A stretch of DNA of 37,101 bases from Nitrospirota bacterium (lineage in GTDB: Bacteria; Nitrospirota; Thermodesulfovibrionia; Thermodesulfovibrionales; UBA6898), in assembly GCA_021814065.1 (NCBI GenBank), contig JAKAIZ010000004.1:1-37101 (forward strand), written 5' to 3'. The notes beneath the pieces were generated by a model. That model did not search any database. It had not been told where the DNA came from and saw only the letters and a list, made by a program, of their open reading frames with translations. Below are positions 14,924 through 36,762 of the stretch, in pieces (position 1 is the stretch's first letter; every line of letters begins with the position of its first letter). Made by a program: the position numbers and the translations under genes.

Positions 14924-15077
14924 ATTTAAATACTTCCTTTTCGTTTTCTTTAATTATATATCATTTCCTTACGCGGAAGGCTATCAAGGTCCATTATTGA
15001 CCATCCACAACCTGTCCTCCTCAGGCGGATCCGCCCGTGGCGGAAGGCTCCGCACAGCCCTGGTATGTAGCGATGAA

Positions 15078-15155
15078 CCTTTTTCTGAATGTCAGTCAAG
15101 ATTACAGCTGCGTTTACGTGAATCAAAATCATATATGGACTTTTTCAGCATGTCC
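15078..15155 (+). repeat. Dispersed intergenic repeat, copy A
   Basis: TGCGTTTACGTGAATCA (15109-15125) followed by CTTTTTCAGCATGTCCTCC (15137-15155), with a related CTTTTTCTGAATGTCAGTC upstream (15078-15096). The same 17-mer occurs reverse-complemented at 36621-36637 and, with one mismatch, at 22459-22475. The remainder of the 322-bp gap 14924-15245 holds a GC-rich palindromic stretch around 15025-15056 and no convincing gene. Confidence 0.6.
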
Positions 15156-15245
15156 TCCTTAGCCTTCCTGCACAGATAAGTTAATTAGCCATGCTTGGCG
15201 CCCATTTTCATGACAGCATCCTGCTGATTGTCGTATCATATAAAG

Positions 15246-22271: not shown

Positions 22272-22458
22272 GTTTTTTTTTATGTTTTTCTCAAGTGTAC
22301 CATAAATACCCGCCATGAAGAAACAGGCCGTATTGTCCCCGAAGAAGCCGTTGACGACCACGTTCAGTCGGAATACGCCTGGCAGACGAAAAGTCCCGTC
22401 TGGATGCTGTCCTTACTGTTACTTATTTAAGCGGAACAATGAAGGCAGTGTTTGATTG

Positions 22459-22475
22459 TGATTCAAGTAAACGCA
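22459..22475 (-). repeat. Dispersed intergenic repeat, copy C
   Basis: TGATTCAAGTAAACGCA on the plus strand, one mismatch from the 17-mer at 36621-36637 and the complement of that at 15109-15125. Read on the minus strand it points toward the YeiH gene, and the following CACAATCAAA also resembles copy B. Confidence 0.55.
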
Positions 22476-22491
22476 GGCGAGACCCTCGCCT
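22475..22491 (-). terminator. Hairpin after hisS, possible weak terminator
   Basis: AGGCGAG, a three-base loop and CTCGCCT form a perfect 7-bp stem just downstream of the hisS stop. The minus-strand tail GCGTTTAC is poor in T, so termination efficiency is doubtful; the hairpin abuts repeat copy C. Confidence 0.35.
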
Positions 22492-22499
22492 CCCCTTAG

Positions 22500-23789
22500 C
22501 TATGGTCGGTGCTCTTCCGCTTTACCTCGCGCCACACTGCGCAGGAAGTCGCGCAAGCCAGACGCAGCGACTGCACCTTCGGCCGCATCCGAAAGCCTCT
22601 TCCATTTCAGCTCACCTGCACGCAGTTCGTCATCGCCGATGATAAAGACATACTCTGCAGCGAGACGGTCTGCCTTTCTCATCTGGCTTTTCAACGAGGC
22701 TGCGCCATCGCCGAGTTCGGTCCAGTACCCATCCTGCCGCAGGCCGTCCGCAATGAGGATACCCTCGGCGCCGGCCCTCTCCCCGATCACCGCGATAAAA
22801 GCGGCGGGGCGTGGGAGGTCCTCCCGCACAGTCATTTTCAGGAGCTCGACGATTCTCTCCATACCTACAGCAAATCCCACCGCAGGCGTCTCCGGCCCGC
22901 CGAACTCCTTCACCAGCCGGTCATATCTTCCCCCGGCGGCGACCGCGTTCTGGGCGCCCAGGTTCTCGCTCGTCACTTCGAAGGTGGTACGTGTGTAGTA
23001 GTCAAGTCCCCTCACCATCTCAGGGTTCACCACATAGGAGATACCGAGCTTTTCGAGCAGATGAAGGAGCCTTTCGAAATGCGCCCTGCAGTCTTCACAG
23101 AGGTGATCGGTTACCCTGGGTGCCCCCTTTCTAACCTCCCTGCAGCCCTCCACTTTGCAATCCAGAATCCTCAGCGGGTTCACGTGGTATCTGCGCCGGC
23201 AGTCGGTACACAGGTCGTCGAGTCTGCCGGCAAAAAAAGACAAAAGTGCCTCCTTGAACACAGGTCTGCACTTTTCGCATCCGATCGAATTGACCTGAAA
23301 CCTGAGATTGGGCAGCCCGACCCCGGCAAGAAATCGCCCCAGCATCGAAAGCATCTCGGCGTCGGTCTCGGCATGCGGAGAGCCGAAACACTCCGCCCCT
23401 GTCTGGTAAAATTGTCTCAAACGTCCCAACTGCGGCCTTTCGTATCTGAACATCGGCCCTGCATAATAGAATTTTTGCGGTGACGGCATATTGAAAAGGT
23501 GGTTTTCCACATAACAACGGACCACCGGTGCGGTCCCTTCAGGCCTGAGAGTGATGCTGCGGCCGCCCTTGTCCTCAAAGGTGTACATCTCCTTTTCTAC
23601 GATATCGGTGTCCTCGCCGATGCTCCTCGTAAAGACGCCCGTTGCTTCGACGATCGGCGGCCTAATCTCCCCGAACCCGAAAGACGAGAATACCTCCCGC
23701 GCCTTCTCTTCGACCGACTGCCAGATGTAAATATCAGGCGGCATGACATCTTTCATGCCCTTCAGCGCCTGGAAACGTCCGGAACTCAT
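22500..23789 (-). CDS. hisS: Histidyl-tRNA synthetase
   Basis: A 429-residue class II synthetase. Motif 2 (FRYERPQLGRLRQFYQTGAE), the histidine-A region VRGLDYYTRTTFE and motif 3 (AVGFAVGMER) are present, and the C-terminal anticodon-binding domain is complete. A Cys-rich insertion (about 170-240, with CEKC, CTDC, CKVEGC and CEDC pairs) is seen in this family in several phyla. ATG 23789 overlaps the divIVA stop by four bases, so it is the last gene of the yggS-proC-yggT-divIVA-hisS operon. Confidence 0.97.
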   Translation of the reverse strand: MSSGRFQALKGMKDVMPPDIYIWQSVEEKAREVFSSFGFGEIRPPIVEATGVFTRSIGEDTDIVEKEMYTFEDKGGRSITLRPEGTAPVVRCYVENHLFNMPSPQKFYYAGPMFRYERPQLGRLRQFYQTGAECFGSPHAETDAEMLSMLGRFLAGVGLPNLRFQVNSIGCEKCRPVFKEALLSFFAGRLDDLCTDCRRRYHVNPLRILDCKVEGCREVRKGAPRVTDHLCEDCRAHFERLLHLLEKLGISYVVNPEMVRGLDYYTRTTFEVTSENLGAQNAVAAGGRYDRLVKEFGGPETPAVGFAVGMERIVELLKMTVREDLPRPAAFIAVIGERAGAEGILIADGLRQDGYWTELGDGAASLKSQMRKADRLAAEYVFIIGDDELRAGELKWKRLSDAAEGAVAASGLRDFLRSVARGKAEEHRP

Positions 23790-29009: not shown

Positions 29010-29354
<345 letters not shown>

Positions 29355-36454: not shown

Positions 36455-36575
36455 ATTCCGTTTTTTCCTTCAGTATTGCAGAGCGCGGGCCTCTCACAAA
36501 GATTGTAGCAGAAAAAAAAGGGACGGAAAAGCGAAACGCACAAGGCCTCATTGCTGATGTTGTATAACGGACGAA

Positions 36576-36731
36576 GACAGACATGTCGAAAAACGCCATA
36601 CAATCGGCAGGATTTTATTGTGATTCACGTAAACGCAAACTCGACGCCTTCCGCTCTCTTGAAAGGCAGGCTGCAATGCCCGTGGTTCATAAGCGGAGCC
36701 TCGACTATGGCGCTTTTTCACCATGTCTGCC
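36576..36731. repeat. MITE-like element, copy B of the dispersed repeat, with terminal inverted repeats
   Basis: The left end begins GACAGACATGTCGAAAAACG and the right end finishes CTTTTTCACCATGTCTGCC; both carry a TATGGCG-type inner edge and are inverted over about 25 bp with a few mismatches. Inside lies TGATTCACGTAAACGCA (36621-36637), the same 17-mer as copies A and C, and a second nested inverted repeat (GACGCCTTCCGC against GCGGAGCCTCG). It is about 156 bp, non-coding, and fills most of the aspS-zwf gap 36455-36762. No transposase is associated. Confidence 0.6.
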
Positions 36732-36762
36732 CTCGCTAATATATGTTTTGTGACGGTAAGCG

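Follow-up and report, generated by a model that had tools for sequence, protein, structure and literature searches.

The window, the whole stretch of 37,101 nucleotides analysed here, is contig C47 of a fragmented 3.33-Mb genome (G000) and carries three copies of a dispersed repeat that share a 17-mer. The 17-mer is perfect at 36621-36637 (+) and 15109-15125 (-) and has one mismatch at 22459-22475 (+); these are the positions given by a sequence-only reading of this DNA, and all three were borne out by direct sequence match, against a chance expectation of 0.08 at up to three mismatches in shuffled sequence. The window also contains a tmRNA gene at 29010-29354 (+) (Rfam RF00023). The features of the repeat are as follows.

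36552-36761, + strand: best-preserved window copy of the probable MITE, some 210 bp long, with the TGATTCACG strand defining its orientation (covariance-model match at 36570-36739, E=4.5e-35)
36552-36568, + strand: decayed 5' terminal inverted repeat TGCTGATGTTGTATAAC (consensus CCYTNANNTTGCATAA), by consensus alignment
36576-36601, + strand: 5' inner arm, the 25-bp terminal repeat of the sequence-only reading
36621-36637, + strand: conserved 17-mer core, in which positions 8-9 pair with 14-15 (C-R-UNNN-Y-G), by match and covariation
36706-36736, + strand: 3' inner arm
36743-36761, + strand: decayed 3' terminal inverted repeat
15016-15164, - strand: second copy, decayed, with an optional TTCCGCC..GGATCCGCC..GAGGA module (covariance-model E=1.8e-8; module site 15024-15035)
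15109-15125, - strand: 17-mer core of the second copy
22429-22523, + strand: third copy, heavily decayed, with its core at 22459-22475 carrying one mismatch (covariance-model E=0.0024); too little remains to place its ends

The outer ends of the copy at 36552-36761 were set by eye, by aligning to the terminal-repeat consensus. Its core is bracketed by the inner arms AGACATGTCGAAAAACGCCATA ... TATGGCGCTTTTTCACCATGTCT, and CTTTTTCAGCATGTC adjoins the core at 15109. The 25-bp inverted repeats around the 36621 copy, previously taken for the ends of the element, are present but are inner arms, the true ends lying about 25 bp farther out. A terminator or promoter role for the window copy was considered and rejected, as one terminator-like site (0.5 expected) and no promoter were found.

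A search of G000 with the 17-mer, as the sequence-only reading had proposed, did yield more copies: 49 sites at two or fewer mismatches, 28 of them exact, with none for a reversed control pattern. When copies are aligned, the 17-mer sits on the left of the apical region of an imperfect palindrome of about 212 bp, with the layout GAGGGCAGACATGCTGAAAAACGCCATACAATCGGCAGGATTTGATTG-core-about 60 nt-GGAGCCTCGACTATGGCTGTTTTTCAGCACATCTGCCCTC and the outer repeats another 25 bp or so outside. A covariance model built on the 170 inner nt identifies about 74 distinct places in G000 at E<0.01, and the core lies within two mismatches in 45 of the 57 places scoring above 53 bits; core conservation is therefore not just a product of core-based searching. 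The element is thus short, multicopy and without coding capacity, as is characteristic of a MITE. It matched no Rfam family in a covariance-model search, and literature searches returned no earlier description of it.

Variation within the family is also apparent. An optional palindromic module around GGCGGATCCGCC occurs at 15024-15035 and at 11 other genomic sites, only inside element copies, and its internal position is shared by different subfamilies; because all 12 sites fall within the element, the GGATCCGCC palindrome was rejected as an independent nested repeat. Two further copies (L109 and L123) are derivatives in which a short CCCGAAAGCCTTCGGGA palindrome stands in place of the whole apical loop.

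The marks of transposition are found at the outer boundaries. The outer terminal repeats read CCYTNANNTTGCATA(A) and are worn in most copies, being degenerate in old ones and intact in L261, L267 and L268. The target duplication is 4 bp, of the TTAA/TAAA/TTTA/TTGA type, and exact duplications flank 5 of 31 copies against 0.5 expected, a count reached in none of 3000 reshuffles. Comparison of L033 with genome G001 reveals a clean 218-bp insertion with TTGA repeated, and further clean duplications accompany L261 (TGAA), L267 (TAAA) and L268 (TAAA), each of 213 bp. Empty sites with contiguous flanks are present in G001 for the G000 copies L016, L024, L026 and L033, and in G004 for L016, L026, L008 and L046. 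Mobility of the element thus appears well supported by comparison of sequences.

A search for a transposase with matching ends, likewise proposed from the sequence alone, succeeded in a related genome. There (G048), an element with the same ends carries an uninterrupted gene (L320:427-1857) for a complete transposase of 477 aa, which belongs to the IS1380 family (PF13701, 3e-39; NF033539, 2.8e-66, 223.9 bits against a cut-off of 180). Its termini are CCCTAACGTTGCATAAAAA and ACCTTGTAGTTGCATAAAA, while the intact MITE L268 begins CCCTAACGTTGCATA and ends, reversed, ACCTTGCAGTTGCATAAAA; the start of L268 corresponds to the right end of the G048 IS (15/15 bases) and its end to the left end (about 18/19). 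The inner motif ATGCTGAAAAAC of the MITE is present also just inside the left end of this IS. The flanks of the G048 IS show no matching duplication (ATAA versus TTGA). G001 contains a multicopy IS with the same end and an IS1380-type remnant beside that end, its contigs breaking inside the IS. In the fragmented assembly of G000 itself, neither an intact IS with these ends nor an IS end was found. The sole IS1380-family transposase gene of G000 (C33:190-1374, L289) lies near a contig end, and no such repeat is visible in its contig.

On the basis of the shared ends, the element is therefore filed as an IS1380-type MITE, a link that seems well supported at the sequence level, and we infer that it is mobilised in trans by an IS1380-family transposase. 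In our main reading, to which we assign a probability of roughly 0.85, the repeat of about 212 bp is a MITE, a transposable element that is non-autonomous and probably depends for its movement on a DDE transposase of the IS1380 family (piggyBac-like) supplied in trans. The outer repeats CCYTNANNTTGCATA(A) would be the substrate of this enzyme, and 4 bp of a TTAA-like target would be duplicated. The earlier suggestion of a mobile MITE that has become a regulatory sequence is supported in its mobile part, through the terminal repeats, the 4-bp duplications, the empty sites and the transposase with matching ends; its regulatory part is a conjecture.

Much younger than this element is a second MITE of about 236 bp with the same ends, CCCTAACGTTGCATAAAGTGTGTGTATTTAGG...CTTTATGCAACTGGAAGG (L259, L260, L258, L265 and L280, in G000, G001 and G004), whose duplications are TTTA, TCAA and TTAA. 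In G001 it accounts for dozens of terminal-repeat matches, and many contigs break there.

The position of copies relative to genes was assessed with gene calls made by codon usage, orthologous duplicates being removed before orientations were counted. In 41 cases the TGATTCACG strand has the same sense as the flanking genes, against 9 in which it is antisense. At all three window copies the TGCGTTTAC strand faces the next downstream gene, as had been noted before, but this rule applies to the three window copies only and is reversed in the genome-wide count. The upstream stop codon abuts the 5' end of the element in 18 of the 58 copies that lie downstream of a gene, which is consistent with stop codons serving as a T-N-N-A target; at L008, L026 and L033 the stop position is native, since the empty sites show it. 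Copies settle in intergenic sequence, and as the target often includes a stop codon, the upstream gene stays intact. The copies that are kept are mostly sense and 3' of a gene, where they would probably be co-transcribed with it as a long hairpin.

Slots between genes also appear to be used more than once. In five cases an intergenic slot is occupied in a sister genome by another subfamily in the same orientation (L002/L174, L003/L141, L019/L255, L036/L124 and L045/L312), and in two cases in the opposite orientation (L046/L151 and L015/L160). At these slots flank identity is about 95%, while divergence between the elements is 15-30% for the stem and 30-50% for the loop, with the core nearly unchanged. 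Such re-use in sister species exceeds expectation and may reflect repeated insertion or exchange between copies.

The interior of the element is conserved in its pairing and loop motifs. Among 30 G000 copies, both partners have changed in 15 of 23 stem pairs, and pairing is kept in 92% of cells, compared with 41-54% in slid versions. Within the order, the covariance model detects full-length relatives in 27 of 177 genomes, representing 19 of 85 genera, and in relatives at family distance the stems differ and the loop motifs are kept. Across 38 diverse sequences (alignment A5), the arms contain 136 double-changed cells against 44.4 in shuffled data, and at core pair 9-14, 27 sequences have G-C and the other 11 A-T, with no exceptions, while 8-15 is always C-G; RNAalifold independently proposes the same core pairs plus a GGC..GCC hairpin. 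Conservation of an inner hairpin and loop across a whole bacterial order is unusual for such an element and suggests that the folded part does something, with the stem, core hairpin and GGC..GCC hairpin acting, as we infer, as a folded strand. A role in mRNA stability or processing would be the most likely, and one in transposition less likely. In the arms, 16 G-T wobbles stand against 29 A-C mismatches; because G-U is not the commoner, these counts do not prove that the sense RNA is under selection. Part of the arm covariation could stem from templated correction between the palindrome arms, and pairing may be kept through DNA hairpin formation rather than through sense RNA. Two wider distributions were considered and rejected: three viral 17-mer matches lack the arms, and about 13 matches beyond Nitrospirota, which mostly fall within ORFs, appear to be due to chance.

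What the conserved interior serves can be argued in more than one way. It is conceivable, and deserves serious weight while falling short of even odds, that the element is a purely selfish MITE whose palindrome and core serve transposition, as a hairpin or for transposase binding, with no host role. The clear marks of transposition accord with this, as does the motif ATGCTGAAAAAC shared with the IS. The core itself, however, is missing from the IS (best match with 6 mismatches) and from the younger MITE with the same ends, and is therefore not needed by this IS1380 transposase; nor would an orientation bias be expected.

Alternatively, though this is less likely than not, a structured RNA family may have been spread long ago by transposition and now be domesticated, retained to serve the host at the 3' ends of mRNAs or in intergenic positions. 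Core pairwise identity is 0.94 against 0.44 for the rest of the apical loop, in a set chosen with at most three core mismatches, and the retention of the core in covariance-model matches, the order-wide architecture, the strict core covariation and the sense bias all point in this direction. Against it, presence varies between species of one genus, copy number ranges from about 1 to 74, the arms show no wobble preference, and the core evolves no more slowly than the arms in orthologous copies (5/170 versus 4/349 to 9/340).

Two further readings are very improbable. A REP/REPIN-type element moved by a RAYT (Y1) transposase would account for dispersed intergenic palindromes, and RAYTs exist in the genome, but they are also found in relatives without the element, none adjoins a copy, no linked RAYT gene flanked by copies was found, and the 4-bp duplications and DDE-type ends, with their match to IS1380, disfavour it. 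A family of parS-like chromosome-partition or other DNA-binding sites is hardly credible either: TGATTCACGT matches half of the parS consensus TGTTTCACGTGAAACA at 9/10 bases, but the other half-site does not fit, the palindromic TGTTYCACGTGRAACA is lacking in the element, the copies are dispersed, and canonical TGTTCCACGTGGAACA is confined to two sites at C171, which lie 36 bp from each other.

Returning to the IS1380-type MITE, the element is a piggyBac-like one with a likely partner identified. The sequence between MITE ends is usually regarded as filler. In this element it is the outer ends that wear away, while stem pairing, the core hairpin and the motifs of the loop are retained across different families within one order; it therefore lends itself naturally to the question of when a selfish repeat turns into an RNA or DNA structure with a function. 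As a tentative proposal, which may well prove wrong, this could be a mobile family with an interior module, a structured RNA (or single-strand DNA hairpin) not described so far, that is shared throughout an order of Nitrospirota and kept sense and 3' of genes: transposon-spread, host-retained post-transcriptional elements whose copies turn over at the same intergenic slots.

Comparison with known systems places the element in context. The ERIC/IRU repeats of enterobacteria are likewise dispersed, intergenic, MITE-like imperfect palindromes of many copies. The target duplication of ERIC is TA, whereas here it is 4 bp, with IS1380-matching ends, in another sequence and another phylum. Like the copies placed 3' of genes here, ERIC/IRU repeats have been reported at gene 3' ends (PMC10969869, a review). 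The Correia elements of Neisseria (CREE/NEMIS) are short MITEs that reach transcripts, form hairpins and are cleaved by RNase III (PMC10969869), but they have other ends and another target, and in the present element the interior is conserved beyond the terminal repeats. Similarly, the Tn3-derived TIMEs are non-autonomous and keep short stretches of conserved core that are thought to influence how transcripts fold (PMC4133298), but differ from the element here in their Tn3 ends, 5-6-bp duplication and usually single copy. The element also resembles the IS1380 family and the piggyBac superfamily, in ends starting CCCT/CCTT, in TTAA-like 4-bp duplications and in the matching transposase found, the element here differing in being non-autonomous. 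A MITE review names no IS1380 MITE, and for one IS1380 element, from Paracoccus, the duplication listed is 5 bp (PMC3281130). In piggyBac, for which IS1380 serves as outgroup, duplications are TTAA with the variants TAAA, TCAA and GTAA, and the ends are of CCCTT type (PMC10813416); both the duplications and the end type fit the assignment of the element as an IS1380-type MITE.
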